In this document: positions 1,358 through 17,426 of the stretch, piece by piece
Position numbering within the stretch: position 1 is the stretch's first letter
How the letters are laid out: every line of letters starts with the position of its first letter
From: Planctomycetota bacterium
Lineage (GTDB): Bacteria > Planctomycetota > GCA-002687715 > DRQF01
Length of the DNA: 17,426 nucleotides
NCBI GenBank assembly: GCA_015485455.1
Contig: WFTN01000420.1
Span: forward strand, 1 to 17,426
Direction: 5' to 3'
The notes under the pieces: generated by a model
Database searches by the model: none
Told to the model about the DNA's origin: nothing
Seen by the model: only the letters and a program-made list of their open reading frames with translations
Translations under genes and position numbers: made by a program

Positions 1358-1408
1358 CGTCTGTTCCCTCTTCTTAAGGAAGGATTGTAGGGGCCCAAAT
1401 AATTCATT

Positions 1409-2539: not shown

Positions 2540-2890
2540 TGACGTAAATCTCTATCTTCCATGTGTTTCCAGCGCCATTCTCGCATCAAAGTGAGGAGGA
2601 AGCTACCCTCATTTGTAAGCTTCGGGGTTACCTGCAGAAATCAATTCAGATGGAAGCCGGATTATTTCTGCATCTTTATGCAAGGATGGAGAATTTGGGC
2701 TTCATTGGCGGTGTGGCTGGGCTCACGCCCGATCTCACATCATTGCTTACCCCATGTCCGGACGGTGGGCTATCTCAGGTTTTAATAATGTCTCCTTGAC
2801 TCAGGGAAATGGGGTTCAACTGCCGATGAGAAGGAAACGGAGTCCAAGTGACGTATCTTGGCCTCGTAATTGAAGAAGGGATTTGCGCCC
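2540..2890. other. Intergenic region with divergent promoters expected
   Basis: About 350 bp between the AI-2E-family gene (minus) and the DUF4388 gene (plus), so promoters for both should lie here. I see no convincing -35/-10 pair on either strand. TTGACT occurs at 2796-2801 on the plus strand, but no -10 box follows at proper distance. A short inverted repeat, TGCAT-CTTT-ATGCA (2669-2682), is the only symmetric element I noticed and could be chance. Short open frames here lack a credible ribosome-binding site and family resemblance, and I do not call them. Confidence 0.5.
2873..2881 (+). promoter_or_regulatory. Ribosome-binding site that decides the DUF4388 start
   Basis: The purine run AAGAAGGGA ends 9 bases before the ATG at 2891. 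It overlaps the codons of a more upstream TTG start (2870), which has no comparable site in front of it. This favours the ATG at 2891. Confidence 0.6.
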
Positions 2891-3673
2891 ATGTCCGGAA
2901 TGGACCTCATTGAGCTACAAGAGAAGATCGCTAGGATGTGTTCGAGCTTGGTCGTCCGAGTCAATGACCATACGAAACGTCTCACGCGGTGGCCTGAAGA
3001 GCTGAGCCAACTGAATCAGGTTGTTTCGGTCGTGAATGAGCTTGGTCGGGTTGTCACTCACATGAAGAAATCGGCTGCGGCCGGTAAGGAAACGACCCAA
3101 AGAGAGAAAACCCAGAAGATCTTGGCCCAGGCATTCGAAGATGTCCTCGGTTCGGTGGATGTTGATACACTTGGGCAGGCGGAAGACGCAGAAGGTTCCT
3201 TCACTTTCGACGGTCGAATTTTCTCAGTAGCCGAGATCCTACAGTTTCTAGCTGATACAAGGCGCAGTGGCCGCGTGCGGGTTGATGGGCCCCAGGAATC
3301 ATTTGTCCTCAATTTAGACAAGGGGACTCTGATGAGCGCATTCAGCACTAACAGTCCTCCGGGATTTCGCTTGGGTGAGATCTTGATTCGAAAATTCGGC
3401 ATCGACAAAGACCTGTTGACGAAGTTCTTGAGTCAAGGCAATCAAGGGCGCGCTCCTTTGGGCGTCGCTCTTTCGGACCAGGCCATTGTACCTCAATCAT
3501 TGGTCTATGAAGCTCTTCACTACCAGATGGTGCGACTCTTTGAGAGATGTTTGGCGCTGGAGAACGCCGACATCGAATATGACCCTTCGCTGATCGAAGA
3601 ATCCATGGATGGTCCTTGTCTCAAAGTGGCTGACATCCTCCTGGGTGCCATGGGGGCTCCAACCCCTCGCTGA
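2891..3673 (+). CDS. DUF4388 (PATAN-like) domain protein
   Basis: 260 residues from the ATG at 2891; a TTG at 2870 would add seven residues but would consume the ribosome-binding site. There is no signal peptide, so the protein is probably cytoplasmic. The first ~100 residues are helical and unassigned, with a basic stretch around residues 58-76. From about residue 104 the DUF4388 pattern begins: FTFDGRIFSVAEILQFL, then an SGRVRVDG strand and VLNLDKGTLMSA. After it, LGEILIRKFGIDKDLL and APLGVALSDQAI...LVYEALHYQM resemble the paired 'LGE.L...G.I....L..AL..Q' repeats of MshEN/GspE N-terminal modules. DUF4388 proteins occur in planctomycetes, myxobacteria and cyanobacteria, often tied to two-component signalling or gliding; the exact role is unknown. 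It converges on the CofD-like gene with a 23-bp gap. Confidence 0.82.
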   Translation: MSGMDLIELQEKIARMCSSLVVRVNDHTKRLTRWPEELSQLNQVVSVVNELGRVVTHMKKSAAAGKETTQREKTQKILAQAFEDVLGSVDVDTLGQAEDAEGSFTFDGRIFSVAEILQFLADTRRSGRVRVDGPQESFVLNLDKGTLMSAFSTNSPPGFRLGEILIRKFGIDKDLLTKFLSQGNQGRAPLGVALSDQAIVPQSLVYEALHYQMVRLFERCLALENADIEYDPSLIEESMDGPCLKVADILLGAMGAPTPR

Positions 3674-3696
3674 TCCATCGCAGTTGATGAGCTTGT

Positions 3697-4893
3697 TTAA
3701 GTCAGAGAAAGCAAAGTCTCGTTGATCTTGGCCCCATCCAAGCTTTGAGGGTCTTGCTCGTTGACAAGGTCCAGATCCAACACTGAAACTCCTTGAGCCG
3801 CAATGGCCTCCACGTCAATTCCGTTTAAGTACTTTCCTCGTTCTGAGTCGATCAAAACAAAGTCCAAAAAGTCCGTGGTAGCTGTGTCTTCACCGGCATC
3901 TCTACGCAAGTAAGCGATGAGTGTTGCGACACAGGCCTCAACCGACATCCCATATTGCTCCGGATCATGACCGGTGTTCGGAATGTAGACTCGAGGACCT
4001 CGTGCCCTCCGAATGGACTTACCAACCCCACTGGGCAACAGATTTGCTATCAGGCTGGAGTAGAAGCTTCCCATGGGAAAGCAGATCAAGTCAGCTTCTG
4101 TTATGGCGGCGCCAATGCTCCGTTCTAATACGCATGTGACGGGTGCTTGGGGGTTCTCACGATCCGTTAAGAATATGCGTTCGATGGGGGACTTGATGGA
4201 CGCGCTTTCTTTTCCAGTGAAGAGATGTTGTCGTACCAAGGACGTGCCATCCTCGAGCCGAACGCATAGGTCTAAATGAGCATTGACTGTTGCTCGAACG
4301 GATCCTCTTACTTCAAGCAAGCGAGAGTAAAGGTAGGTGACAGCATCGATGTCGCGATTGCTTTGAAGATAGGCTCCTGCCAGCGTCAAGTTCCCCAAGC
4401 TCGCGCCGCTTAGGTCGAAATTTCTCGGCATTTCTTGGCAGAACGAACGCAGATGACTTCCAACCAAGTTGCGGATCGGTTGGGGGATTGATTCCATCAA
4501 GGGGTCTCGTCCCAAGTCAAGTTGAGCCAATTGCTCTTGCAAAACCATGGAGTCCCCATCTTCTGGAAATCGAAATCCGAAGAACTTTCGAATCTCGTCG
4601 TTGCCCGACAAATTGTCGTCTGCAAGAGTGCATAGTCGATTGCGAATGTCACCAATGCTTGGCATGGCGAATGCTTCACGAAGACTTGCAGATGAGCCAC
4701 CTGAATCAAAGGGAGTCATCAAGTGACAGCTATTGAAGGAGTATTCCTTGATGTTCTTGGACACCTCGCGCAAGGCAGAGCCACCAGAGAAAAAGAGAAT
4801 TTTGGGACCTAATTCGGGGGCTCTCCGGTAGCGTTCTATGCGAATTCGATCTGGGATCTTGGCTACTCGGTTAATCGGAATTCGTCGACGCAT
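3697..4893 (-). CDS. CofD/YvcK-like protein, GAK-system type
   Basis: 398 residues, soluble, no signal peptide. The N-terminal motif KILFFSGGSALREVSK (31-46), followed by TPFDSGGSSASLREAF (60-75) and the helix GDIRNRLCTLAD (81-92), is the nucleotide/substrate-binding start of the CofD/YvcK fold. PMGSFYSSLIANLLPSGV (273-290) corresponds to the 'GPGS..TS...NLL' motif of the same superfamily. The wording (FFSGG, NSCHL.TPFDSGGSS) fits the subgroup annotated as GAK-system CofD-like proteins better than classic YvcK or the F420 enzyme CofD. That subgroup normally sits beside an ATP-grasp enzyme, an HprK-related kinase and small XXXCH or amphi-Trp proteins; none is encoded here. The reaction is unknown; phospho-transfer is the family expectation. 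Both flanking genes are unrelated, and the ATG at 4891-4893 has a poor ribosome-binding site. The superfamily is secure; the subgroup is from memory. Confidence 0.78.
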   Translation of the reverse strand: MRRRIPINRVAKIPDRIRIERYRRAPELGPKILFFSGGSALREVSKNIKEYSFNSCHLMTPFDSGGSSASLREAFAMPSIGDIRNRLCTLADDNLSGNDEIRKFFGFRFPEDGDSMVLQEQLAQLDLGRDPLMESIPQPIRNLVGSHLRSFCQEMPRNFDLSGASLGNLTLAGAYLQSNRDIDAVTYLYSRLLEVRGSVRATVNAHLDLCVRLEDGTSLVRQHLFTGKESASIKSPIERIFLTDRENPQAPVTCVLERSIGAAITEADLICFPMGSFYSSLIANLLPSGVGKSIRRARGPRVYIPNTGHDPEQYGMSVEACVATLIAYLRRDAGEDTATTDFLDFVLIDSERGKYLNGIDVEAIAAQGVSVLDLDLVNEQDPQSLDGAKINETLLSLT

Positions 4894-4974
4894 GAATTGG
4901 AGGCTTTCATTTGCGGGAATCAGGTAGCTGTGCTCTTAGATGATTGCGCTTTTATTCTTGCGAAAGGAGAAGCT

Positions 4975-5076
4975 ATGTCAAGTCGAAGGCCGGACTTAGT
5001 GGTGATGGGACGCCTCACCTTCTTCTACCATGTCAGGACTTCGTTTCGGCAGGTTTGCTCCTGGATAGGCAGATAA
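4975..5076 (+). CDS. Possible 33-residue small ORF with a strong ribosome-binding site
   Basis: ATG at 4975 is preceded by AAAGGAG with a 5-base spacer, one of the best Shine-Dalgarno matches in the window. The peptide (starting MSSRRPDLVVMGRLTF) is basic, with a partly hydrophobic middle and no recognisable family. Its TAA stop at 5074-5076 runs into the A-run that is the U-tract of the minus-strand terminator. It is divergent from the CofD-like gene. A chance match is the simpler explanation; I keep it as a low-confidence candidate. Confidence 0.2.
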   Translation: MSSRRPDLVVMGRLTFFYHVRTSFRQVCSWIGR

Positions 5077-5108
5077 AAAGCCGACCCCAATGATTCATTG
5101 GAGTCGGC
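5075..5108 (-). terminator. Intrinsic terminator after the tandem secreted-protein genes
   Basis: Arms 5080-5092 and 5096-5108 are 13 bases each around a 3-base loop. In the minus-strand transcript they pair fully if one G-U pair is allowed (GCCGACTCCAATG with CATTGGGGTCGGC), and TTTTTAT follows directly. It begins 25 bases after the stop of the 650-residue secreted-protein gene. Read on the plus strand, the same hairpin has no T-run after it, so it is one-directional. Confidence 0.9.
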
Positions 5109-5133
5109 CTGATTGAAGAAAACCCGACTTGGT

Positions 5134-7086
5134 CTACATAACCGTTACTTGCACGGCGTTGGAGAGGGCAACCCCAGCTCCTCCAGTCGTGAAGAAGGCA
5201 CATTGGAATGATCCGAGAACCCCGATTGGCAAATTAGGAACACTGAAACCAATGTTGGCAATTCCGTCTGCTGCCGTAATAAAGAAGGAGTTGAGACCTC
5301 CTATTACTGTGCCATCCGCTAGGACAGTCAAGGCAGTTGGCAAGCCGCTCACGGGGTCAATGGGACCACCCATGTCAATACTGCCCACATTAGGGAAGGA
5401 GGCAACATTGGGATTGAGGGGCCCTGAGAACAGGATGATTGGCTGAAGTGCTTCACCTTCCATCTTGAATTGCAAGATGTCGCCTTCTGTGACGTTGGTG
5501 AAGTAGGGACCACCAAAACCAAAGGTCAGAGGGTCTGTATTGATATTCCTTGGGTCGTTGATATCCAAGACGGCTAAACCGGGTTGGGGAGCTTGCCCGG
5601 GGGTTGATAGGACCTCAAGCACAGAAAGATCATCGATGGCGATGTCATGGTTGTTACTTCCGCTATTGGTCGTTTCCCCTCTCAACACCAACTGGATCGT
5701 TTGCCCTGCGAAGGCGTTGAGGCTCAAAGCTTGGAAGGTCCAGTTCGGGCCAATGTGGCCCTGAGGACCAAAAACATCTGTCGTGATGAGGCCACTGGGT
5801 TGGCTAATGACATCAATCGAGAACAAATTTTGCTGTGTCGGGCCGGTGGCACTGTTGGAATAAATGAAGAATCGCAAACTTGGGTTGAAGGCTCCCAGTA
5901 GATCGAAACACGGAGATCGAAGATTGATGGCCGCATGATTGCTGTCATCATCGACGTAGGCGTAGCCACCAGAACCGGCGACCCCTGTGGTGTTGTCCGC
6001 GGAGGGACCTGTGTTGAATGTAGGGGTCGCGTCGTTTCTAAATAACCAGTCCGAGTTAAATCCGCTAGCCTCGGTTGTCTCTTGGACATAACCCGCGGGA
6101 GCTACGGTTGAACCGTTGACTCCTGTGACCGTGAAGTCTTCAGTATAGGGAAAAAGGACAATGCGGGTTTCACCACCACTGTAGATGGTTTCGGTCAAAC
6201 TGTCGTTCGAAGTGTCGAAGTCAATCAAACCACTGGCCGTACAGGTCACTGTATGGGCGCCGATTGTTGAGAGGTCGGCGGTGGCCGTGAATGTATATGA
6301 GGCTGTATCCCCTAATGCAAGGGGGGCAGCTAAAGGGAAAAACTCGAAGGTGGGAGGGCCGCCATCGACAGTGAAGGACACGGTGATCACGGTGCCTGAA
6401 GGAACAGTCACTGTGCCGAAATTACGAAACTCAAATGAGACCACTTCTGTCGACGATCCCGCGGCGCAACTAAGAGGGTCATTCACAGGCGAAAGGATCT
6501 TCGTTGTCGCCAAGTCATCGGAGAAGAGCATTTGGTTGGTGTAATGAATGTTGCCATTCCAGATGCGGGGATTAAACGTCAGATTGAAATAACCTCCGCC
6601 GTAACCCTGATAGTATTCCAGGTCTGTATTGGATGCATAGAGAGTGCCAGGGGCACCGGTGCCGGTGGTGTATCTGACACTAGCACCGTTGATGCCGGTT
6701 ATATAGAATGCTTGGGTGTCCCCAGGGAAAATAGGGAAGTTCAGGTTGAGCCCCAAAGGTGTTGGGTTGCCAGCGCCTGCACCTACAACACCAGTTGCTG
6801 TCCCAAGAAGGGTCCAGTTGGCGTTGCTCATGCGGTTGTTCACATAGGAAACATTGGGTGTGATGAGGGCCCAAACTTCGAAGTCACCTGTGGTGACAGC
6901 CGTGTTGATGTCGAAGTCATTGATAATCACACCGGTGAGCGATTTGACATCGAACATGTTACCTGTGGAACCGTTATTGTCGGCAAAGGTTGTGGTCAAT
7001 GGGGATTGGGCCTCGGCTTGGGTTGTACTCACAGCGATGAATGCAACGAGTAGCAAAAGGCTCAAAAAGGACTGGTTAAATTTCAT
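5134..7086 (-). CDS. Secreted modular protein: unnamed N-terminal beta domain, Ig-like, MAM-like and C-terminal beta domains
   Basis: 650 residues. A Sec signal peptide is clear (MKFNQSFLSLLLLVAFIAVS..., likely cut near AEAQ-S at residue 27). Residues ~28-183 form an aromatic- and glycine-rich domain without a name known to me, ending WNGNIHYT. Residues ~196-300 resemble a CARDB/Ig-like module. Residues ~312-492 have MAM/choice-of-anchor-J features: FPYTEDF, GFNSDWLFR, GGYAYVDD, SPCFDL, and a closing HDIAIDDLSVLE. Residues ~497-650 are a terminal beta domain (GQAPQPGLAVLDIN, VGSIDMGGPIDP, ALSNAVQVTVM). No catalytic residues are evident; a structural or adhesive cell-surface role is inferred. 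No LPxTG, PEP-CTERM or lipobox is seen. ATG 7084-7086 follows an AAAGGAG site. The gene lies 45 bp downstream of a paralogue and ends at a strong terminator. Confidence 0.85.
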   Translation of the reverse strand: MKFNQSFLSLLLLVAFIAVSTTQAEAQSPLTTTFADNNGSTGNMFDVKSLTGVIINDFDINTAVTTGDFEVWALITPNVSYVNNRMSNANWTLLGTATGVVGAGAGNPTPLGLNLNFPIFPGDTQAFYITGINGASVRYTTGTGAPGTLYASNTDLEYYQGYGGGYFNLTFNPRIWNGNIHYTNQMLFSDDLATTKILSPVNDPLSCAAGSSTEVVSFEFRNFGTVTVPSGTVITVSFTVDGGPPTFEFFPLAAPLALGDTASYTFTATADLSTIGAHTVTCTASGLIDFDTSNDSLTETIYSGGETRIVLFPYTEDFTVTGVNGSTVAPAGYVQETTEASGFNSDWLFRNDATPTFNTGPSADNTTGVAGSGGYAYVDDDSNHAAINLRSPCFDLLGAFNPSLRFFIYSNSATGPTQQNLFSIDVISQPSGLITTDVFGPQGHIGPNWTFQALSLNAFAGQTIQLVLRGETTNSGSNNHDIAIDDLSVLEVLSTPGQAPQPGLAVLDINDPRNINTDPLTFGFGGPYFTNVTEGDILQFKMEGEALQPIILFSGPLNPNVASFPNVGSIDMGGPIDPVSGLPTALTVLADGTVIGGLNSFFITAADGIANIGFSVPNLPIGVLGSFQCAFFTTGGAGVALSNAVQVTVM

Positions 7087-7131
7087 TTTGTTTTCTCCTT
7101 TGTGGTCAACAAGGTTTCTTGTGACGAATCC

Positions 7132-9267
7132 TTAGTTGACAGTCACTTCAATCGCGTTCGTCATGCCGACTCCCGAAGGAGTTGAGTTCAAAAGTGCTGC
7201 TTGGAATGTCGTCAAAATTCCAGGTGGCACAGGGGGCATAGTGAAGAACACGTTGGCGGTTCCTGCAGATGTAGTATTGAAGAACGGATTGAAGCCCGAA
7301 GGAACCGAGCCATCTGCGAAGATGACGACTCCCGTAGGAAGCATACTCATGGGATCAATGGGGCCACCAATGTCAATGCTACCAACAACAGGGAAGATCG
7401 CGGCATTGGGGTTCTTGGTGCCCAAGAGAAGGATGATTGTTTGATTTGGTTCGCCTGAAAAATCAAACGTCAACAAATCACCGACATCCACATTGCTGGT
7501 GTAAGGGCCCTTGTCACCAGAAGAGACAGCGGCCAAACCTGGGCTTATGGCGTTATTGATGTCCATAACGGCAACTCCTGGCTGAGGAGCTTGGCCAATA
7601 CCTGGTACGAAATCGAAGATGGTAATGTCGTCGATGGCAAGGTCATGTGTGTCACCTCCACCGTCGCTCCGGCCTCGGAATACGAGACGGCACAAGGAAC
7701 CATTGAAGGCCCCTAAGTTGACAACATAGGGTTGCCACAAGGAGCCGACATGCCCGGTTTGTGGCAATACATCCAAAGTAATGGCACCACCTGGTGAGGT
7801 GATAACATCCACTGAAAGGAAGTTCTCGTTGGCTCCTCCGGTGCCGTTCGCATTTGCACTATAGAGCCAGAATTTGAGACTGGGATTGGATGTATTGGTG
7901 AAGTCAAAACATCTTGTAACTAAGTTGACGGCACTGTGATTGCCAGCATCTTCCACATAAGCGTAATAGCCTGTGCCTCCGGTGAGACCCGTTGAAAAGT
8001 CTGCCATGGGGCCAGTTCCCACAGTGGGTGTGGCTTGATTGGTGAAAATCCATTCGGAATCGGGACCAGAAGAGTCATCTGGATCTTGGACCCAGCCTGC
8101 CGGTGGTAGAATACTTTGATTTGAAGCGATCCCAGAGAAATCTTCCACATAAGGAAACGCTGCGATAGGTACCTCATTAGTCACCAGAACTCGGGTTGCG
8201 GTGTTATTGAGGTTGACGACATCTCCAGGGAACATCGTTGTGACCGTCATGGTCAAGGCGGGGGTCATAGAGAGATCCACTGGCGTGGGAATGCTCAGCA
8301 CTTCGGAGTCGCCCGTGTTGAGAATTTGCGTCGTGGTGATCATGTCAGACAGCACCAAGACAGTGTTGACCCGGACTTCCACGGGAATAACGGTTCCAGC
8401 GGCAATGGGATTTGTGCCCGTGTTGGAGATTGCGATGCTGATTGTTTCAGACGCCGAAAGTGTCTTGCAATTAGTCGGGCGGGTGACTGGGCTTGTGATC
8501 GAGGAACAGGCGATGTCGTCCGTTACGAGATTGAGATGACCCAGAGCTTGCGCTCCAATTTCTAAGCTTGAAAGAGTTCGGTCCCAAACGCGGAATTCGT
8601 CAATGCGCCCACGCCAAGTAGCATTGCCAGGACCGAAACCGCCGATGATCAGACCAGTCGTGCCGCTTCCTACCAAGTCGATAGGGGCAGGCTGCGTGAC
8701 GGGTGGACGTACGATTCCATCTACATAAGGCGTGATCGTCAAGGCCCGGGAGTCGTGAACCAACGCTACGTGCTTCCAAGTTGCAAACTGAACCGCTGTG
8801 GTAATTGCGACTTTCTTTATGCCAGCTCCCTCCAATGTGAGAGTGGAGTTGGGGCCAGAGGGATCGCGGTAGCACCTGAAGTTCGAAATTGTTGGGTCGC
8901 CAAAGACGTAGCGCGTCGTGCTAGGAGACGATTCTGTGTCAATGATCCAAAACTCGATCGTCCAATCACCGGTGACGGAGAAGGCAGTGTTAATGACGCA
9001 GGGATCCGCCGTGGTATTTGCTGTCTTAAGACACGCTGGCCCCAAAACAACGCCACCAGTGCTATTTGTGTTCGTGTTGAAGGCAGCACCATTCTGGATG
9101 GTTGGCGAAACGCCAGGAAGGCCAGGGAAAGCACGGTCTGCTGTGACCGACCCGCTTGTTTCACTGAAACGTAGATAGAGAATTTCTGGGCGTTGAGCCT
9201 GAAGCGCAACTTGGAATGCGCAGAATAGGAGTGTAAGCCTAACTGCCTCGCGGAGCCTGATTTGCAT
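7132..9267 (-). CDS. Secreted LamG/Ig-like/MAM-like modular protein, paralogue of its downstream neighbour
   Basis: 711 residues with a signal peptide (LTLLFCAFQVALQAQ, likely cut after residue 24). Residues ~27-238 form a LamG/concanavalin-like domain: ILYLRFSETSG, the GDWTIEFWI core, WKHVALVHDSRALTITPYVDG, and the terminal WRGRIDEFRVWDRTLSSLEI. Residues ~250-365 are an Ig/CARDB-like module. Residues ~370-552 are MAM/choice-of-anchor-J-like (FPYVEDF, GPDSEWIF, GYYAYVEDAGNHSAVNL, HDLAIDDITIFD). Residues ~556-711 are the same terminal beta domain as in the downstream gene (GQAPQPGVAVMDIN, VGSIDIGGPIDP, MTNAIEVTVN). LamG domains usually bind glycans or proteins; no glycoside-hydrolase active site is apparent. 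ATG 9265-9267 follows AAAAGGTGA. Spacing of 45 bp to the next gene and the lack of a terminator between them indicate one transcript. Confidence 0.87.
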   Translation of the reverse strand: MQIRLREAVRLTLLFCAFQVALQAQRPEILYLRFSETSGSVTADRAFPGLPGVSPTIQNGAAFNTNTNSTGGVVLGPACLKTANTTADPCVINTAFSVTGDWTIEFWIIDTESSPSTTRYVFGDPTISNFRCYRDPSGPNSTLTLEGAGIKKVAITTAVQFATWKHVALVHDSRALTITPYVDGIVRPPVTQPAPIDLVGSGTTGLIIGGFGPGNATWRGRIDEFRVWDRTLSSLEIGAQALGHLNLVTDDIACSSITSPVTRPTNCKTLSASETISIAISNTGTNPIAAGTVIPVEVRVNTVLVLSDMITTTQILNTGDSEVLSIPTPVDLSMTPALTMTVTTMFPGDVVNLNNTATRVLVTNEVPIAAFPYVEDFSGIASNQSILPPAGWVQDPDDSSGPDSEWIFTNQATPTVGTGPMADFSTGLTGGTGYYAYVEDAGNHSAVNLVTRCFDFTNTSNPSLKFWLYSANANGTGGANENFLSVDVITSPGGAITLDVLPQTGHVGSLWQPYVVNLGAFNGSLCRLVFRGRSDGGGDTHDLAIDDITIFDFVPGIGQAPQPGVAVMDINNAISPGLAAVSSGDKGPYTSNVDVGDLLTFDFSGEPNQTIILLLGTKNPNAAIFPVVGSIDIGGPIDPMSMLPTGVVIFADGSVPSGFNPFFNTTSAGTANVFFTMPPVPPGILTTFQAALLNSTPSGVGMTNAIEVTVN

Positions 9268-9679
9268 GGGTGTTCACCTTTTCGAAATACGTCGCTCACA
9301 TGTGTTGGGGTCTGCTTCTTAGGCACGGCCTGAGCGATCTTGACTTGTCATTTGCGGACAAACGCACATCCAGACCCTAAATTCTTGCTGGGAATCCTGC
9401 AAGGAACATTTCTAACAATGTCGTTTTGTACTCATGAGGTGTGCGTTTTTTACTCGTAAGTTGTTTTGATTCCGTGCAAAGAGCTTCTGACGCCCGTGTT
9501 TTCGCGGCTATTTTCTCCCTTTCTTGGATGATTTTGAAGGAAGGAGGCCTGTCGGTGGGGAGATTTTGTTCGTGGTGATTCGATTTCTTGCTAATAGCCG
9601 AGTCAGGGATTAGCCTCGAAAGGAAGGGGTAAGCAGTTGTTGTGCCTCAGTTTGCAGTGATTCGATAAGGACGATTAGA
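9268..9679. other. Divergent intergenic region upstream of the secreted-protein pair and the DUF1579 gene
   Basis: 412 bp without a gene. It should hold the promoter of the secreted-protein operon (minus) and that of the DUF1579 gene (plus). The main structure is a two-copy 22-bp tandem repeat at 9421-9464, listed separately. The decamer GTGATTCGAT occurs at 9575-9584 and again at 9657-9666, just before the DUF1579 start. I found no convincing sigma-70 box pair on either strand. Confidence 0.5.
9421..9464. repeat. Two tandem 22-bp repeats, possible operator
   Basis: Copies 9421-9442 and 9443-9464 match at 17 of 22 positions. The core CGTTTT-K-TACTC is conserved in both, and the repeat ends in TGT. 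A period of 22 bp equals about two helical turns, placing both copies on the same DNA face. They lie about 155-195 bp upstream of the LamG gene and about 215-260 bp upstream of the DUF1579 gene. Confidence 0.55.
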
Positions 9680-10168
9680 ATGAATCAAGAATGCGCGATG
9701 CCGGAACCCAGCCAAGAACACGAGATGATTGTGAAGAATGCGGGGGTGTGGGATGTCAAATGTCGTTTCTTTATGGGCCCAGACCAGCCGCCACTGGAGA
9801 GCGAAGGGGTGGATACCATTAGCGCCATTGGTCAATTCTGGACTGTAGGCCGTTTCGAAGCGGATTTCATGGGCATGCCTTTCGCCGGATCTGGTCAACT
9901 TGGTTATTTACCAAAGGAAGGCTGTTTCATCAGTACATGGATCGACTCTATGTCGACTTTCATGTTTACTCTCAAAGGTCAATATGATGAAGCGACCAAG
10001 ACCCTTGACTTGAAAGGTGAAGGCCCAAACCCAGCGGATGGCGAATTGATCCCACAACGAGTTGAGCATGAATTCGTTGACGACAATCACCACAAGTTGC
10101 GCATGTACATGACCACGGAGCATGGGGAGGTCAAGTCCTTCGAAATGGACTACACGCGACGGATCTAA
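9680..10168 (+). CDS. DUF1579 domain protein
   Basis: 162 residues with no signal peptide or membrane segment. The pattern is that of DUF1579: an N-terminal EHEMIVKNAGVWDVKCRFF strand, ESEGVDTISAIGQFW...FEADFMGMPFAGSGQLGYLPKEGCFISTWIDSM, a GQYDEATKTLDLKGEG turn, and a closing strand with FEMDYTRRI. Family members are lipocalin-like beta barrels of unknown function, common in planctomycetes. The ATG at 9680 follows TAAGGACG with a suitable spacer; the next in-frame ATG (9698) has no better site. It stands alone on the plus strand and converges on the small CxxC gene, 118 bp away. Confidence 0.85.
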   Translation: MNQECAMPEPSQEHEMIVKNAGVWDVKCRFFMGPDQPPLESEGVDTISAIGQFWTVGRFEADFMGMPFAGSGQLGYLPKEGCFISTWIDSMSTFMFTLKGQYDEATKTLDLKGEGPNPADGELIPQRVEHEFVDDNHHKLRMYMTTEHGEVKSFEMDYTRRI

Positions 10169-10286
10169 GCTGGCTGTGTTTTCCTATGGCAACCGCAACC
10201 CTTCCTTCCCTTTCTTGATGGGGGAAGCGAGGGGCCCGATTCGATTTGAAGGCTGGGTAAGCGGTTTCGCCTGTCTGTTCGTGTCT

Positions 10287-10526
10287 CTATTGCCCCAACT
10301 TTTCCTTTATCCAATTGTTGAAATCCACCGCCATGACTTGTCCAATGCATTCACTTTCGTCTTCGTGGATAAACTGAAAATAGAATCGTACGCTTTCTTC
10401 TTCAGTGCTCGTCTTGTGGCTATTTGCATTCACGGTGGTATAGGTTTTGCCACATTCAGAGCACTGAGTTAGTTCTTTTCTTACACGGATGAGGGCGTCG
10501 TATTTTCTTGGTATTCCGTCGGTCAT
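10287..10526 (-). CDS. Small CxxC protein, third gene of the sigma-kinase operon
   Basis: 79 residues, starting MTDGIPRKYDALIRVRKEL. It has a single CSECGKTY motif at residues 22-29, which could be half of a zinc site or a redox pair, and a lone cysteine in DESECIGQ. The C-terminal half (VRFYFQFIHEDE...VMAVDFNNWIKEKL) looks like a small alpha/beta fold. I do not recognise the family. The start is 32 bp after the kinase stop on the same strand, in front of a weak purine-rich site (GAAAGAAA). No terminator separates them, so co-transcription is likely. Coding status is supported by context and a protein-like composition, not by homology. Confidence 0.55.
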   Translation of the reverse strand: MTDGIPRKYDALIRVRKELTQCSECGKTYTTVNANSHKTSTEEESVRFYFQFIHEDESECIGQVMAVDFNNWIKEKLGQ

Positions 10527-10558
10527 TTTCTTTCGGCCTATTTCAGATAGTCAAAAAT

Positions 10559-12661
10559 TCAATTCTCGTCCACATTGGTCTTTTTGGTCTCATCCAACAT
10601 TTTTTGGGCTTGAAGCTGAATGTCTTTGAGAAGTGTCTCCTTGCCTGCGATGTTCTCCAACTTTGGCAAGGCTATGTCTTTGGATTGATGTTTGTAGTAT
10701 TCCAAGATGGTCCCCCAGCCTTGAAGATCATTTGTCCGTAGGGTGGATTCAAATTCTTCTGCCATGGTTCTCATGGCCGGCATTCCTACTAAGAGGACAT
10801 TTTGAGCCATAACGTAGCGCAATGCTTCTGGATTTTCCTTATTTCGGAAGAATAATAGAGCCAATTCAGCGGCGTCGGCAGTCCGAAATGCCGCTAGTCC
10901 GAAAAGGGCGTTTACACGACAGGCACCGTCTTCTGTCTCTTCAAGGACTTGCCGCAAGAAAGGTACCACATTGTCGTCAGGGATTCGGAAAAGTGCTTGG
11001 GAACACCAGATTCTAATGAGCTTACTCGAATCGTTGAGGCAGTGATCGGTAAGAGATTGTGCAGATGCCTCGTCTCCCACTTGCATCAGAATGCGGATGG
11101 CTGCTAAACGGACGCCATCATTCTCGTCTTCCAATTTCTGGCGAATCCAACTCTTGGCCACTGCTCCGAAAAAATCGATTTCTTTGGTTATTTGACTGAG
11201 GGAACGATCCTGAAGAATAAGCCCTAGGGCGGAGTTGTCTTGAATCTCAACAAAACGATCAAAGGATGATTGGAAGTCCCGCCATCGTTGCTGGAATTCG
11301 GCGGCGGATCGTGTTTGCTCTGTTCTTCGTTGCACTTCATCTGTAGCGAGGACGCTGAGGAGTCCGACGACGGGGAGGGCGAAGGCAAAGATGGCCAGAG
11401 TGCGGTTTCTTTGGGTCCATCTGGTCAACTTGACTGCAACACTGGCAGGACGGGCGTGAATGGGGTGCATCTTGAGTACCCGGGAGATGTCCTCAGCAAA
11501 TTCTAAGGATGTGGCGTAGCGTCGATCCCTATCTTTCTCCATTGCCTTGGAAACAACAGTTGCGATGTCTTTGGGGGCGTCTTTGTTGAGTTTTCGTAGG
11601 TCCTCGGGCTCCTTCGTCAGGATGGCCTGATAGATCTCTTCTCTTGTAGGTGCAGCGAAGGGTCGTTGCAATGTAATCGCTTCATAGAGGCTGACAGCCA
11701 AGGAGAAAATGTCCGTACGGTGATCAAGGCGAATTCGATGGGCGGATAATTGTTCCGGCGACATGTAAGCCGGCGTTCCGAAGAAGTCGCCAGTCTGGGT
11801 GAGATCCATGCGTTCGGACTGTTCGTCGTGGGCCAATCCAAAATCAAGAATGACAGGTTCTCCATTTTTTCGCACCATGACGTTTCCTGGTTTGATGTCT
11901 CGGTGAATAATGCCAGCGGTATGGGCTTCGTGGAGTGCCAAGGCTGTTCTTTCGAATGTTCTAAGAATCGAACGAAGCGCCTCTTTGTTTGGCAGGACTG
12001 TGTTGACGATTTTGCCCGCAGTTGTGGCGGCGAGCTCACGTGGACTTTCATCCGCTATAATTGATGGAAAAAAGATCTCTTCGTTCGGAGACTCATTCTC
12101 TTCTTCCGAATTTTCGAATGACTCTGTAGCTCCTCTGGTGCGCTGGGTTTCGATTTGGTTGGCGATTGAGGTGCCTTCAATCAGTTCCATGGCGATGTAG
12201 GGCATGCCGTCATGAATGTCGGATTCAAAGACAGTGCAGATACTCGGGTGATTGAGCTTGGAACACAATTCAGCCTCTCGTTGAAAGCGACGAAGGGTGG
12301 ACTCACTGCCCAAGTCGACTCGTGTCAGTATCTTGATAGCCACAGTACGATCGAGCTTCTGATCTTTAGCTGAAAAAACAACAGCTTGGCCCCCTCTGCC
12401 AATTTCAGGCCCCAAGAGATAGCGCCCAACTGTGTCTCCTGTTTCTGCGATCCTAAAAATCATACCTGGGATGTTGCAGCTTTCCCCTGTAGAGGGGTCG
12501 GAAGCATCCAGATTCATGCGCAGATAGAGTTCCTCGATCAAATCATGGTGACCGTCGAAAAGCCGCTGATAGTCTTCTAATTCCCTTTGAGTTCCCGCTT
12601 CCAATTCCGCCAAGAATAGTCGTTGGAACTGCTCTTTGATTTGATCATGTTTTTCAGTCAT
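10559..12661 (-). CDS. Transmembrane Ser/Thr protein kinase with C-terminal HEAT-like sensor region
   Basis: 700 residues. A helical N-terminus (1-55) precedes a Hanks-type kinase domain (~80-400). Landmarks are the glycine loop GRGGQAVVF (88-96), VAIK with catalytic lysine K110, HRDIKPGN with D255 and N260, DFG at 273-275, and GTPAYMSPEQ at 295-304. All key residues are present, so an active kinase is expected. An acidic insert of about 45 residues (~174-218, SEEENESPNEE) lies between the hinge and the catalytic loop. One membrane helix follows (~421-439), so residues 440-700 should be extracytoplasmic. They contain HEAT-like helical pairs (~505-690). Residues 537-590 align without gaps with residues 186-239 of the HEAT protein encoded divergently next to the sigma gene. 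The start codon overlaps the sigma-factor stop as ATGA, implying translational coupling. A likely target is the partner sigma factor, as known for some other kinase-linked ECF sigmas; this is inference. Confidence 0.92.
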   Translation of the reverse strand: MTEKHDQIKEQFQRLFLAELEAGTQRELEDYQRLFDGHHDLIEELYLRMNLDASDPSTGESCNIPGMIFRIAETGDTVGRYLLGPEIGRGGQAVVFSAKDQKLDRTVAIKILTRVDLGSESTLRRFQREAELCSKLNHPSICTVFESDIHDGMPYIAMELIEGTSIANQIETQRTRGATESFENSEEENESPNEEIFFPSIIADESPRELAATTAGKIVNTVLPNKEALRSILRTFERTALALHEAHTAGIIHRDIKPGNVMVRKNGEPVILDFGLAHDEQSERMDLTQTGDFFGTPAYMSPEQLSAHRIRLDHRTDIFSLAVSLYEAITLQRPFAAPTREEIYQAILTKEPEDLRKLNKDAPKDIATVVSKAMEKDRDRRYATSLEFAEDISRVLKMHPIHARPASVAVKLTRWTQRNRTLAIFAFALPVVGLLSVLATDEVQRRTEQTRSAAEFQQRWRDFQSSFDRFVEIQDNSALGLILQDRSLSQITKEIDFFGAVAKSWIRQKLEDENDGVRLAAIRILMQVGDEASAQSLTDHCLNDSSKLIRIWCSQALFRIPDDNVVPFLRQVLEETEDGACRVNALFGLAAFRTADAAELALLFFRNKENPEALRYVMAQNVLLVGMPAMRTMAEEFESTLRTNDLQGWGTILEYYKHQSKDIALPKLENIAGKETLLKDIQLQAQKMLDETKKTNVDEN

Positions 12662-13236
12662 CTATCTCGACGATTCCATTCTTTGGACATCTTATCTTGG
12701 AGTAACTTACGTCCCCGAGAAAGACGTTGTTTAACAGCGGCTTCCGAGATATTAAGATGGTTGGCGGTTGCGGCAACTGTCATGAGGCGGATATGGTAGC
12801 AGTTTAACACCGATGAGTAGAGCGTATCTAGGTCGGCAATGAGTTTGTGGGTCCAGATGCGATCATCGTCCCGGGTCACGATGCCAGTGCTGGGATGAGG
12901 GGCTGCTGGCGGACTCGGAATTTGAGATGCCCCGACATCGTTTCTCTGACGGCGAAAAAGATTTGCTAGACGCCAACGTCCCAGTTGCAAAGCATAGGCC
13001 AAGAATTCAGTTTCACTTAAGTCCTTCGGGAATCGTTCCAATCGCTCCAATAGGTCTAAGAGTGCAGATTGAGCCACATCCTCCGCTTCTGTTTTGCGCC
13101 GAGCTTCCAGTCCCATTCTTTTTTCAATGTATCGAATTAAGCGATCCCGCACACCATTTAAGAGGATGGATTGGGCCTCTTGATTGCCTTCTCGGGCCTG
13201 AGTGTAGCTCGTCTTGAAACTTTTCTCGGTGGTCAT
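12658..13236 (-). CDS. ECF-type RNA polymerase sigma factor linked to a Ser/Thr kinase
   Basis: 192 residues. Region 2 spans ~18-100 (GNQEAQSILLNGVRDRLIRYI, TEAEDVAQSALLDLLERL for core binding and -10 contact, then LGRWRLANLFRRQR). A proline-rich linker follows (~104-118). Region 4 spans ~131-181, with a helix-turn-helix in MTVAATANHLNISEAAVKQRLSRGRKLL. There is no region 3 and no C-terminal extension. The region 4 lead-in (LDTLYSSVLNCYHIR) departs from the common 'LP...R.VL.L' pattern. No anti-sigma factor gene is nearby; the next gene, overlapping by ATGA, is a Ser/Thr kinase, which suggests control by phosphorylation. The ATG at 13234-13236 has a weak ribosome-binding site. Confidence 0.9.
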   Translation of the reverse strand: MTTEKSFKTSYTQAREGNQEAQSILLNGVRDRLIRYIEKRMGLEARRKTEAEDVAQSALLDLLERLERFPKDLSETEFLAYALQLGRWRLANLFRRQRNDVGASQIPSPPAAPHPSTGIVTRDDDRIWTHKLIADLDTLYSSVLNCYHIRLMTVAATANHLNISEAAVKQRLSRGRKLLQDKMSKEWNRRDR

Positions 13237-13274
13237 TGGGTGTAATTATCTTAGATTCGGCCTTCGTACAAGAA

Positions 13275-13303
13275 ATATCAGACTTCTGTCACCGGAATGA
13301 CAA
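13275..13303 (-). promoter_or_regulatory. Candidate promoter of the sigma-kinase operon
   Basis: On the minus strand TTGTCA (13298-13303, five of six matches to TTGACA) is followed after exactly 17 bases by TGATAT (13275-13280, a weak -10). Transcription would begin about 30 bases before the sigma ATG. The -35 half overlaps an inverted repeat. Sequence-only prediction. Confidence 0.3.
13287..13302. promoter_or_regulatory. Inverted repeat TGTCA-N6-TGACA in the divergent promoter region
   Basis: Perfect 5-bp arms (13287-13291 and 13298-13302) around CCGGAA. It lies in the 132-bp gap between the sigma gene and the divergent HEAT gene and covers the candidate -35 box of the former. It could be an operator for a dimeric regulator, but short palindromes also arise by chance. 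Confidence 0.35.
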
Positions 13304-13368
13304 TGGCAGAGCAAAGAAGTTGGCAAAACGAATCAAGTGCCGATCCATCATAAGAGGAGAACCATATC

Positions 13369-14403
13369 ATGAAAGCCAGCTTACCAATTTTGACTCTTGT
13401 CGTCGGGGCCATCATCGGCTGGGGAGGCCACAATCTTGTCGCCGATGGAACGGATGACAGGATTGACTCCCAGGACTCGGAGCAAATGGTCGGCATGACC
13501 CAAGCGGAACATATGGAAATCGTTGGTCGACTCAAGAAAACGATCGCGGCGCTCAAAGGCGATGCGCAAGAATCCCGTTCCGCTGCTCGTGTTGCCAAGA
13601 CTGAGAATAGTGCTTTGCTCGCCGAGCTCAAGAAAGTCAAAGGAGAAAATGCTGAAATGACTGCCAGGGTGGATGCGGGAGATCTGAAGAAAAAGGAGAG
13701 GATGGCGGCCATCGAAGATCGGTTCAAGAAACTCCGGGGCAAGGGCATCGGTGCACTGATTTCGAACAATGAAATCGGGAAACTCGTGGCGGACCTTCTT
13801 CAAGAGGGGCCTCAAGGTCAGGCGGCTGTTTTAGCTTTATTGGCATCAGAAGACGGAGATGAGCAGATGCTTGGCGTCGTCCTGATGCTCCAGGGAATGG
13901 CCTCAGTGGAGTCGATTGATCCTTTGACGAAGATGGCATTGGAGAATGGGGATGAGACCATGAAGGCCATGGCATCTCAAGTCCTCATGCGCATGGATGA
14001 CAAAGAAGCGGGGGCAGCCTTAGAAAAGCTTGTTGCTGAGACTAAAGATGAAGGAGTGAAAGTGAATTCGCTTTTTGGTCTGGCCCGCCAAGGAAACAAG
14101 AATGGAGTCCAACAGCTTTTGGACTACTACAACGACGAAAACAGCAAACATGCAGACGTACTGACCCAATCATTTTTCGTTCTTACGAATCCAGAATCCC
14201 AACCTTTGATTGACGCCGCTGTTGCACGATTTGCGGATAATGGTAACGACAGTGAGAGAGCGCGGATCAATGCCGCGGCCGTCAAATACTATGGCCACGT
14301 CAAAACCCCTGCCTCCAGACGGGCATTAGAGAACCTTGCGAATGACCCGAATGTGAGTGTCCGTGTCAAAGAAAAAGCTCGGGCTGCGATGATGGGTTGG
14401 TAG
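13369..14403 (+). CDS. Membrane-anchored coiled-coil and HEAT-repeat protein, divergent from the sigma-kinase operon
   Basis: 344 residues. The N-terminus (LPILTLVVGAIIGWGG, residues 5-20) is an uncleaved membrane anchor or signal peptide, so the rest is probably extracytoplasmic. Residues ~45-122 form a charged, heptad-like coiled coil (IVGRLKKTIAALKGDAQ, ENSALLAELKKVKGENAEM). Residues ~130-344 are HEAT-like helical pairs ending in VRVKEKARAAMMGW. Residues 186-239 align without gaps with kinase residues 537-590, sharing LT, SQ.L.R, D, ET.D and VN.LFGLA (19 of 54 identical by eye). ATG 13369 follows GAGGAG with a 9-base spacer. The shared promoter region and domain point to a role with the sigma-kinase pair, perhaps as ligand, scaffold or target. 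No enzymatic motif is seen. Confidence 0.85.
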   Translation: MKASLPILTLVVGAIIGWGGHNLVADGTDDRIDSQDSEQMVGMTQAEHMEIVGRLKKTIAALKGDAQESRSAARVAKTENSALLAELKKVKGENAEMTARVDAGDLKKKERMAAIEDRFKKLRGKGIGALISNNEIGKLVADLLQEGPQGQAAVLALLASEDGDEQMLGVVLMLQGMASVESIDPLTKMALENGDETMKAMASQVLMRMDDKEAGAALEKLVAETKDEGVKVNSLFGLARQGNKNGVQQLLDYYNDENSKHADVLTQSFFVLTNPESQPLIDAAVARFADNGNDSERARINAAAVKYYGHVKTPASRRALENLANDPNVSVRVKEKARAAMMGW

Positions 14404-14437
14404 GTGGCTGTTTGTGGATGCCTGAGCTGTTTCATGA

Positions 14438-16483
14438 CTACCTCTGAGCCCGCCAGCCCGAGTAATCCACATCGAGAGGAGGGAGGGGATCAGTTCGGTG
14501 GTTCCCTTTCTTCAGATAGTGATCAAACCAACGCAAGGTTCTGACGGCATAGTCGTAGCGATTGGTGTTGATGCGATTTCCGTGGCCCTCATTGGCGTAT
14601 TGCACGAGCCGTGTTGGTGTCTTCGTGGCCATTTTTACTGCTCGGTAGAGCATGAAGGGTTGGGAAGGATGGACCCGGGGGTCTTTGTCGCCACCCAAGA
14701 GCAGAAGGGGTGTGGTGCACAACTCGGCAAATTCCAAGGGACTTCGGGAATCCAAGAAAGCTTTCTGTTCGTGGGGGTGTTTTTCCTCGTAGTGAACATG
14801 GAAGAATTCCTTGGGAATGTCCGTTGTGTACCATTTGCTTCTGATGTGGGTGAAGGGGACAAAGCTCACTGCCGCGGCGAAATGTTTGCTCTGCTTTGTT
14901 GCCGCCCATGCCGCTGTGTAGCCGCCATAGGAACCCCCTCCGATACCGACTCGCTTGATGTCAATGAGACCCTTCTTGGCGAAGAACTGAATTGCATCCA
15001 AATGGTCGTTGAACTCCGCACCCATGGGGTCGCCGTGGTCTTTCTTAGCAAAGGCCACGCCATATCCTGTACTGGAACGGTAGTTAGGGAGCCAAGCGAA
15101 ATAACCCCGTGCCGCCAACATCTGGCCCCACGATGAGTAAGAGGTATTCCAGCCTTCTGAAAAGTGAGATTCTGGACCCCCATGAGCAACGACCACAAGG
15201 GGGTAGCGTTTGGTCTTGTCGTAGTTGAGGGGATAAATCAAGAGCCCTTCGATGGGCAAACCATCCCGTGCCGGAAAGGTGAGAGTTTCTTGCTTCCCCA
15301 AAGCGTAATCATCCAACCACTCATTCGAGTAGCTTAAGCGGACGGGTTGGCCCCCAATAACAAAGCGATGAGCCTCTGCGGGGAAACGGGCGTGGGATGC
15401 GGCTGTCACTAGGCTGTTTGGATCTCCTGGCACAAGGGCAATGTGCTTGAAGGCCAGCCCCTTGCCCCCCCCCAGAGGTGTGATTTGACCGTTGGAAAGA
15501 TCGAGTGCACCCACATAAGTACGCGCACCATAACTGGCAACGACAACAAGGTTCTTATTGTCCCGCCAGATGATCTGATGCACCATGCCGGAGAATTTCT
15601 GAGTGACCAGCGATGTTTTCTGGTTGTTTAGATCGGTGATGTGCAACATGCCAGCATGGGGATCTCGCTTGTCCACGGCGCCGATCCAACACAATTTCTT
15701 GTTGTCTGGGGAAATGGCGAAATTGCCGAGTTTGCCTGGATTGTCAGCTGCTAATTTGACGGCACTTGAGGCCAGATCGAGCTGGTAGAGTTTGCAGCCA
15801 ACGTAACGGTCATCGATAGAGCTTGTTGGGGCTGCAGAAAACGCGATCTTCTTGCCGTCCCGAGACCAGACGAAGTCAACGACGCTATTCTTCGTGGTCA
15901 GTCTTCTGACGTTGCGACCTTTCTCGTCGCAAAGGAAAAGTGCCATCGATGATAAACCTTCGTCAACAAAGATAGGTTTGAATCCGGATTTTCTGGCGTC
16001 TATGCGGTGCTGGGGTTTGGGTAAGCGCGCAGTGAAAGCGATGGCTTTGCCATCTTCTCGCCATTTGTATGAGGCGACACCAAAAGGCGCGTTTGTCAGC
16101 CGTTCGCTTTTTCCTCCTTGGGCCTTGATGCGATAAATCTGCTGGTACTTATCTTTTTTTTGGCGATCAAGATGGGTGATCCATTGGCCGTCCGGAGAGA
16201 AGCTCACTCCATGGACTTGGGTTTTGCCGCCGATCAAAAGTTCAGGGCGGAATTCGCCGGAGAGTCCAACCTGAAACAAATGAACATAATTGCTGCCAGC
16301 GGGGTCGCCGGCGAGTCTGGGCTCGGAACGAGTGAAAACGGCGCTCTTGCCATCAGGCGCCGGGATGACCTGATAGACCGTTCGCAAAGTGGCGACGTCG
16401 AATGGGGTGAGCCCATCTTGGGGTGACTGGCTCCAAAGGAAGCCACTGAAGACAAATGCCCAAAGCAAGAGTGACGTTTTCAT
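14438..16483 (-). CDS. Secreted S9-family peptidase (prolyl oligopeptidase/acylaminoacyl-peptidase type)
   Basis: 681 residues, normal for family S9. The N-terminus (MKTSLLLWAFVFSGFLWSQS) is a signal peptide. Residues ~30-390 are a beta-propeller built from TolB/PD40-type blades (VSFSPDGQWITHLDR, YKWREDGKAIAFTAR, FVWSRDGKKIAFSA, FAISPDNKKLCWIG). The C-terminal ~280 residues are the alpha/beta hydrolase domain: VVAHGGPESH (431-440), the nucleophile in GIGGGSYGGY (S518), the acid in GGDKDPRVHP (D601) and the base in NEGHGNR (H634). The triad is complete. It should cleave oligopeptides that enter the propeller; bond preference cannot be told. ATG 16481-16483 follows AGAAGGAAC. It lies 31 bp downstream of an S46 peptidase gene, probably in the same transcript. 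A run of nine G in its coding strand keeps frame. Confidence 0.93.
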   Translation of the reverse strand: MKTSLLLWAFVFSGFLWSQSPQDGLTPFDVATLRTVYQVIPAPDGKSAVFTRSEPRLAGDPAGSNYVHLFQVGLSGEFRPELLIGGKTQVHGVSFSPDGQWITHLDRQKKDKYQQIYRIKAQGGKSERLTNAPFGVASYKWREDGKAIAFTARLPKPQHRIDARKSGFKPIFVDEGLSSMALFLCDEKGRNVRRLTTKNSVVDFVWSRDGKKIAFSAAPTSSIDDRYVGCKLYQLDLASSAVKLAADNPGKLGNFAISPDNKKLCWIGAVDKRDPHAGMLHITDLNNQKTSLVTQKFSGMVHQIIWRDNKNLVVVASYGARTYVGALDLSNGQITPLGGGKGLAFKHIALVPGDPNSLVTAASHARFPAEAHRFVIGGQPVRLSYSNEWLDDYALGKQETLTFPARDGLPIEGLLIYPLNYDKTKRYPLVVVAHGGPESHFSEGWNTSYSSWGQMLAARGYFAWLPNYRSSTGYGVAFAKKDHGDPMGAEFNDHLDAIQFFAKKGLIDIKRVGIGGGSYGGYTAAWAATKQSKHFAAAVSFVPFTHIRSKWYTTDIPKEFFHVHYEEKHPHEQKAFLDSRSPLEFAELCTTPLLLLGGDKDPRVHPSQPFMLYRAVKMATKTPTRLVQYANEGHGNRINTNRYDYAVRTLRWFDHYLKKGNHRTDPLPPLDVDYSGWRAQR

Positions 16484-16514
16484 CTCTGTTCCTTCTAAAC
16501 TCGAACTCTACTTA

Positions 16515-17426
16515 CTACATCCAGCTAAGAAGCTCAGAAACAACCCGATCGGCATTGTAGATTCTCTGGAGAGCTTCCAGGATTGCCGCGGTATGAACGG
16601 AGACACTCCGGGGGATGTCACTGCGATAAACAAAGTTATTTCCCAACATTTCGATGTTGCCATCGAAAATGAGGCCCACAACTTCTCTTTTCGCATTGAT
16701 AACAGCGCTTCCGGAATTGCCACCGATGATGTCGTTGGTGGCGACGAAGTTCACTGGTTTCGCGAGATCGATCTTGTCGCGCTTGTCCAACCAAACCTGG
16801 GGCAGATCAAAAGGGTATTGATTGTCGAAGGCGGTGGCTCTTCCGTAGAGGCCATAGAAAGTTGTTCTCCATGGGGCAATGGTACCGTTCATTGGGAAAC
16901 CTTTTACTTTGCCATCAGAGATTCGCAAAGTACCGGTGGCATCTGGACTCACGGATGTGCCGTACACAGCAAAGAGAGCTTGTCCAATTTTGGTCTTCTG
17001 AACTTTGAGCTTTGTTCCCAACTCTTGCATTTTGCCTTTTTCAGCTTGAGTCATCTTATGGAGGATGAGAGCTGCTTGGATGGCTGCATCTTTGCTGCCC
17101 TTGAGAACATCCATTCCAGCTTCCATTAATTCCTTGGCGGTATTTCCGGCGGCACACGGAGAATTGGCGTGCAACTGGGCAACGGCCTCTGTAGGGGATA
17201 ATTCTGGGTAGATGGCGGCGATGAAAGCATCATTTTTCGGCGCCCAGGTACGGCCATGATCCAACCATAAACCTAGGTTAATCAGGTCTGCTCCTTTGGC
17301 GAGAGCTATGTCTTTCAGGCCGCCCCTTCCGGTTAGAGCTTTCCTGGCTGCCCCTTTTTCCTTTGCTGAAAGACTGGGGTCGTTGACGCGGACCAAATTC
17401 AATGCTCGAGATAATAAGGGATTTCG
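16515..17426 (-). CDS. S46-family dipeptidyl-peptidase (DPP7/DPP11-like), N-terminus beyond the right edge
   Basis: The frame is open through the last base of the window (the upstream codons read RNPLLSRALNLVR), so a TTG at 17400-17402 is not the true start; 303 residues of a family usually about 700 long are visible. The serine-protease motif IIGGNSGSAVIN carries the catalytic serine (TCC, complement of 16713-16715). It is followed by VVGLIFDGN, and PRSVSVHTAAILEAL and RVVSELL match the usual S46 end. The His and Asp of the triad lie outside the window. The residue 18 positions after the serine, which sets P1 preference in characterised S46 enzymes (Gly in DPP7, Arg in DPP11), is glycine here, so a preference for hydrophobic P1 residues is expected. 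These enzymes remove dipeptides from oligopeptides in the periplasm. The S9 peptidase gene follows 31 bp downstream. Confidence 0.9.
   Translation of the reverse strand, partial: RNPLLSRALNLVRVNDPSLSAKEKGAARKALTGRGGLKDIALAKGADLINLGLWLDHGRTWAPKNDAFIAAIYPELSPTEAVAQLHANSPCAAGNTAKELMEAGMDVLKGSKDAAIQAALILHKMTQAEKGKMQELGTKLKVQKTKIGQALFAVYGTSVSPDATGTLRISDGKVKGFPMNGTIAPWRTTFYGLYGRATAFDNQYPFDLPQVWLDKRDKIDLAKPVNFVATNDIIGGNSGSAVINAKREVVGLIFDGNIEMLGNNFVYRSDIPRSVSVHTAAILEALQRIYNADRVVSELLSWM

Follow-up and report, generated by a model that had tools for sequence, protein, structure and literature searches.

The 17,426-nucleotide window analysed here (contig WFTN01000420.1, positions 1 to 17,426, of the Planctomycetota assembly GCA_015485455.1) was found to carry a gene pair for an extracytoplasmic function (ECF) sigma factor and a transmembrane protein kinase, divergent from a gene for a membrane-anchored protein whose HEAT domain is related to the ectodomain of the kinase. 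The window is contig C420 of a genome (G000) of 4.13 Mb in 614 contigs that is 77% complete. The kinase gene (10559..12661, minus strand) encodes a 700 aa Hanks-type Ser/Thr kinase made up of a kinase domain, one membrane helix and a C-terminal HEAT ectodomain (Pkinase E 2.2e-38, HEAT_2 E 2.3e-12). It overlaps by 4 bases the gene for the 192 aa ECF-type sigma factor (12658..13236, minus strand; TIGR02937, 59 bits; Pfam regions 2 and 4), and an intergenic region of 132 bases (13237..13368) separates the sigma start from that of the divergent gene (13369..14403, plus strand) for a free coiled-coil/HEAT protein of 344 aa (HEAT_2 E 4.7e-10, and family search). These coordinates and strands agree with the original prediction, made from the letters and their open reading frames, that the sigma gene is flanked by the kinase gene and a divergent HEAT gene. 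The sigma factor had also been called kinase-linked, which is borne out by the adjacent, overlapping kinase gene; no anti-sigma gene lies beside the sigma gene in the window or in the one congener compared (genome G001).

The features of the kinase and sigma genes given below are on the minus strand and those of the free HEAT gene on the plus strand. The kinase retains its catalytic motifs (VAIK at 107, HRDIKP at 253, DFG at 273), and a hydropathy scan finds the single membrane helix that had been predicted, at residues 421-439 (11345..11401); with the VAIK lysine, HRD, DFG, one span and a domain that probably lies on the outer side of the membrane, the protein has the make-up of a Hanks-type receptor kinase. 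Residues 441-700 were modelled by AlphaFold2 with 13 HEAT-region helices (mean pLDDT, the predicted local distance difference test, 92.2). The free protein starts with a hydrophobic helix near its N-terminus; its AlphaFold2 model (mean pLDDT 79.5) shows a long helix at residues 45-123 (13501..13737) that is probably a coiled coil, and a HEAT region of 14 helices.

The two HEAT regions are homologous over about 205 residues, which supports the claim that they are paralogous. Local alignment pairs kinase residues 468-672 (10646..11260) with residues 117-324 of the free protein (13717..14340) at a score of 128, a value reached by none of 1000 shuffles (mean 37, standard deviation 5.9, maximum 67); BLASTP relates the two proteins at E 1e-9, and a profile of seven free proteins compared with the kinase ectodomain by hhalign gave a probability of 98.4 (E 4.3e-15, 181 columns). 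The 19 identities in 54 residues counted by eye between kinase residues 537-590 and residues 186-239 of the free protein, without gaps, are exact and mark the best ungapped 54-residue window of the pair. Within the genome, as far as it is complete, each region is the other's best non-self match: the free protein finds the kinase at E 2.0e-8 (next match 0.0025) and the ectodomain finds the free protein at 8.8e-10 (next match 0.07), so that the similarity is stronger than that to unrelated HEAT proteins.

In a database search four proteins, that of G001 among them, proved homologous to the free protein, with identities of 47-59%. A family profile built on an eleven-row domain alignment was searched against 392 genomes of the phylum. 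At E 1e-8 it matched 212 of the 392, mostly weakly and probably through ordinary HEAT proteins; beyond the rows used to build it, new family members were recognised in G252, G279, G168 and G255 at 132-178 bits, the next matches scoring 92 bits or less. By reading, these four and the weaker matches in G263, G211, G071, G051 and G171 have an N-terminal hydrophobic stretch, a charged coiled-coil-like stretch and then HEAT repeats. A signature pattern, N[SA]x[FYV]GL plus flanking positions, occurs in 21 of 23 family rows, G011 and G263 lacking it, and in none of four tandem-HEAT controls, the pattern having been written after the alignment was seen and the rows chosen by hand. It reads ACRVNALFGL in the kinase (residues 580-589, 10895..10924) and GVKVNSLFGL in the free protein (residues 229-238, 14053..14082), and the shared motif VN.LFGLA pointed out originally turns out to be this signature. 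With the family defined by an N-terminal helix, a coiled coil and a HEAT domain bearing a signature of this type, the free protein has every element and the kinase ectodomain has the HEAT domain and the signature only. Judged from sequence, the family to which both HEAT regions belong is one of membrane-anchored coiled-coil/HEAT proteins in Planctomycetota.

The same HEAT module forms the C-terminal part of three ECF anti-sigma-type proteins in other families of the phylum. That of G026 carries zf-HC2 and adjoins a sigma gene; that of G045 carries FecR and, by eye, an HxxxCxxC stretch, and also adjoins a sigma gene; that of G053 carries FecR on a contig that is cut. HEAT-ended proteins with zf-HC2 or FecR were located at L038 9079-11504, L090 3396-5761 and L091 2-1456. 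At locus L037 (G001:C722, 852-10128) G001 encodes a second coiled-coil/HEAT protein, which adjoins two radical SAM proteins, an ABC transporter and a methyltransferase-like protein; two short precursor-like proteins, alike by eye, are encoded there too, and the locus may be a gene cluster for a peptide natural product.

A tree built from 23 HEAT domains places the two kinase ectodomains, that of the window and that of G001, within the clade of free HEAT proteins of their order (98/97), nearest to the free protein of G002 (91/86, not starred) and on a long branch (2.31). Placement outside this clade is disfavoured (approximately unbiased (AU) test, p 0.0196, named after the tree had been seen), and grouping with the genus's own free proteins, as expected of a local duplication, is not rejected (AU p 0.155). 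Because the ectodomains nest in the free-HEAT clade and an outside placement is disfavoured, the sequences indicate that the kinase took its sensor from the coiled-coil/HEAT family.

The sigma factor matches the generic ECF profile TIGR02937 above its cutoff (42.9 bits) and Sigma70_ECF (31.2 vs 21.1); region 2 lies at its threshold (24.1 vs 24) and region 4_2 just under (25.6 vs 25.7). Across ten aligned sequences the acidic region-2.2 motif EAED (residues 50-53, 13078..13089) is intact in the window's protein with E52 and D53 invariant, and the linker reads TG.VTR in all ten (TGIVTR here, residues 117-122, 12871..12888), T117 and T121 being invariant. As the acidic motif is kept, membership of ECF43 was ruled out. 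A linker survey took the best 34 sigma rows from the 392 genomes, of which 31 had a DNA locus and were counted, with kinases called by motif. Where the linker has G.VTR.[DE], a kinase motif lies within 1.5 kb in 8 of 8 loci; elsewhere this holds for 9 of 23 (Fisher p 0.0035, kinship ignored and both the window and G001 counted), these nine being G153, with the near-miss GTLTRRD, and eight sigma factors of a more distant type. The conserved linker threonine thus appears to track kinase linkage, before any correction for kinship. Six loci, five with the linker motif and that of G153, were read over 4-12 kb each: by Pfam the partner kinases have FGE-sulfatase ectodomains in G235 and G153, WD40 in G026:C125 and G067 and TPR in G026:C116, that of G109 being cut, and no HEAT-family protein was found within the stretches read. 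Since these sigma relatives adjoin kinases with WD40, TPR or FGE-sulfatase ectodomains, the locus is a known sigma-kinase chassis fitted with a new, unusual sensor. A second set of kinase-linked sigma factors (L154-L159) differs at the corresponding alignment position, where the linker is rich in Ser/Thr (QTSPS, for example).

The arrangement was then compared among relatives. In G001 (metagenome-assembled genome Dive96_bin3.79, contig JAJRYU010000491.1) the kinase, sigma and HEAT genes have the same layout, and beyond the HEAT gene there come, as in the window, genes for S9 and S46 peptidases, an additional gene being interposed; a second contig carries the kinase tail, a DUF1579 gene and a laminin-G-like gene in the window's order. 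In two further lineages the sigma and HEAT homologues come from contigs of equal size (22992 and 7758 bases) and therefore probably share them. A fifth HEAT protein comes from a 2711-base contig with no matching sigma factor, and for 6 of 10 sigma proteins no contig of matching size carries a HEAT protein. The order is represented by 12 genomes: five encode a free protein that matches the family strongly, a sixth, G010, has a weak match only (4e-4), and two encode the HEAT-kinase. Over the 20 kb surrounding the free HEAT genes of G002, G008 and G011, neither a kinase motif nor a match to the sigma model occurs. A scan of genome contigs with one protein as query found no locus, and with alignment A1 as query it found three. 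The expectation that sigma, kinase and divergent HEAT genes recur together therefore holds for G001, while the pairing is confined to a genus-level group whose surroundings are conserved in G001 as well; the HEAT gene is kept beside the sigma-kinase pair in G001, and for the sigma-kinase relatives elsewhere no HEAT-family protein was found in the 4-12 kb read. Directly downstream of the free HEAT gene of G002 (L034 6379-9861) lies a gene for a large MscS-type mechanosensitive channel. In the window, the S9 prolyl oligopeptidase-like and S46 peptidase genes (14438-17426) are convergent to the HEAT gene, the S46 gene being cut by the window end; on the other side are encoded a GAK-system CofD-like protein (3697-4893; TIGR04357, 488.5 bits) and a pair of proteins with MAM domains (5134-9267), of which one also has a laminin-G-like domain. 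A plasmid search gave no match.

The reading we favour, tentatively and at a little less than an even chance, is that this is a genus-level kinase-linked ECF sigma locus in which the kinase draws its sensor from the coiled-coil/HEAT family, a free member is encoded divergently, and the two proteins form a two-part envelope-sensing system that reports to the sigma factor. Both HEAT domains would face the periplasm, and the ectodomain and the free protein would either contact one another or share one envelope component as their ligand, with kinase activity depending on how far the free protein is occupied. The sigma factor may then be activated through phosphorylation by the kinase, as reported for EcfK, likeliest at linker T121 and perhaps at T117, given that its region 2.2 has acidic residues already; it would in turn read its own locus and a further regulon. 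The free protein might accordingly act as ligand, co-receptor or decoy, the roles first proposed for it together with control of the sigma factor by the kinase. In favour speak the homology over some 205 residues, the mutual best match in the genome, the nesting in the free-HEAT clade, the layout in G001, the probable sharing of contigs by sigma and HEAT homologues in two further lineages, the HEAT modules on anti-sigma-type proteins, the linker motif and the published phosphorylation of EcfK by PknS, which make a partnership of HEAT protein and kinase plausible and suggest a two-part unit in a small group of uncultured Planctomycetota. We consider it unlikely, though worth keeping in view, that the ectodomain imitates its free HEAT neighbour and competes with it for a partner, the level of unbound partner being passed to sigma activity by phosphorylation of the linker threonine in a class of sigma factors that keeps the acidic motif.

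Several observations weigh against this partnership. Adjacency in G001 is weak evidence for it, because the surrounding genes (MAM/laminin-G-like, DUF1579, S9 and S46) are conserved too, and among the matches listed in a protein search with the ectodomain there was no kinase from the two further lineages (the organisms of P0015 and P0017), the cut kinase of G001 being missed as well. Since the HEAT gene stands alone in three relatives of the order, the free proteins would have a job that does not depend on the kinase. As to the mutual best match, a comparison with 59 relatives puts other proteins nearer to each member of the pair. For the free protein the kinase region ranks 9th in a list of 21 rows, HEAT domains of G026 (6.7e-14), of the second G001 protein (1.0e-11) and of G053 (5.3e-9) scoring better; for the ectodomain, the free proteins encoded by G002 (1.3e-16) and G011 (2.1e-12) outscore the one encoded next door. 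Identity between the window and its G001 counterpart amounts to 70% in the kinase domain, 69% in the free HEAT region, 58% in the sigma factor and 46% in the ectodomain; the ectodomain thus evolves faster than the free HEAT region, which weakens the case for a strictly shared ligand. It also carries three cysteines of its own, C541, C553 and C581 (10919..11041). The linker association, for its part, is post hoc, with only 1-3 independent pairs once kinship is corrected for, and the near-miss of kinase-linked G153 counts against it.

A captured domain without any present partnership, that is, a copy of a HEAT gene fused to the kinase while the free gene serves as an independent envelope protein, is a serious possibility, though one we hold to be doubtful. 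It would fit the free HEAT proteins that have no sigma-kinase neighbours in G002, G008, G011 and other families of the phylum, the large divergence and new cysteines of the ectodomain, the local-duplication topology that is not rejected, and the general conservation of gene order round the pair in G001. The probable sharing of contigs by sigma and HEAT homologues in two further lineages speaks against it, as does the module on ECF anti-sigma-type proteins, from which it would follow that the domain, rather than the free protein, takes part in signalling. It is distinctly unlikely that the free HEAT protein is a mere target gene of the sigma factor in a divergent autoregulated regulon, with the kinase sensing, and not contacting the protein, an envelope structure which that protein serves. 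Autoregulation is common in ECF systems and the genes diverge across 132 bases; however, comparison of this region between the window and G001, two species, revealed no conserved promoter-like pair, the observed count being reached by 19 of 300 and 27 of 300 shuffles. Redox or metal sensing through the three cysteines, with the HEAT neighbour irrelevant, is very improbable: the cysteines are kept in G001 and their columns are cysteine-free in all 21 of the other, non-kinase members in the alignment, 18 of these having a HEAT domain devoid of cysteine, but only two kinase sequences are concerned and the residues that stand elsewhere in place of the cysteines are small or aliphatic (Ala/Leu/Val), so that the exchange may be neutral. 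That the similarity is that of any two HEAT proteins was rejected and keeps a barely perceptible probability. Fold searches with both models returned designed alphaRep HEAT-like proteins as top matches, as any HEAT fold would, so that the fold alone does not discriminate, and a G048 HEAT protein matches the ectodomain (2.3e-7) about as well as the G001 free protein does (1.6e-7); these points are countered by the scores, the signature, the tree and the mutual best match.

An uncharacterised family of Planctomycetota envelope proteins appears linked to gene control, because its HEAT module is found both on a kinase tied to a sigma factor and on anti-sigma-type proteins of ECF systems, and the linker threonine is a candidate switch, simple to test, for kinase-linked ECF sigma factors outside ECF43 that keep the acidic motif.

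A free paralogous partner beside a sigma-linked kinase was not found described in a literature search that left most subscription papers outside its reach. HEAT repeats were not found there together with periplasm, threonine kinase and sigma factor, nor with kinase, sigma factor and Planctomycet; in the accessible portion of PMC3174227, HEAT repeat, anti-sigma factor and ECF occur in separate tables and a reference. The nearest known arrangements are the ECF43 pairs EcfK-PknS of Xanthomonas citri and EcfP-PknT of Vibrio parahaemolyticus, where, as here, the sigma gene adjoins that of a transmembrane Hanks-type kinase. According to the available part of PMC13147305, PknS phosphorylates residues in the linker of EcfK, and one of the phosphosites is a threonine between sigma2 and sigma4. 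The kinases of these pairs, as far as the sources at hand describe them, have a periplasmic repeat domain (TPR in PknS), whereas that of the window has HEAT repeats and a free paralogue next door; ECF43 members also typically lack the acidic region-2.2 motif, in whose place they have uncharged residues with a phosphorylated Thr, whereas the window's sigma factor keeps EAED. Kinase-linked groups ECF59, 61, 62 and 217 are known from Planctomycetota, and the excerpted text of PMC8999054 reports the acidic motif to be present outside ECF43, although for ECF59 an extract of PMC8103513 states, to the contrary, that serine replaces it. These groups share phylum, kinase neighbour and, as reported there, the acidic motif with the window, and a HEAT partner is not mentioned in that portion of PMC8999054. 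The anti-sigma-type proteins of G026, G045 and G053 share the C-terminal HEAT module and have a zinc-finger or FecR protein where the window has a kinase. Finally, receptor kinases of Planctomycetota whose periplasmic part is an array of TPR or WD40 repeats, as presented in the sections available of PMC11032199, have the same plan of cytoplasmic kinase, single span and periplasmic repeats, but differ in that the ectodomain of the window's kinase is HEAT, drawn from a family of free envelope proteins.

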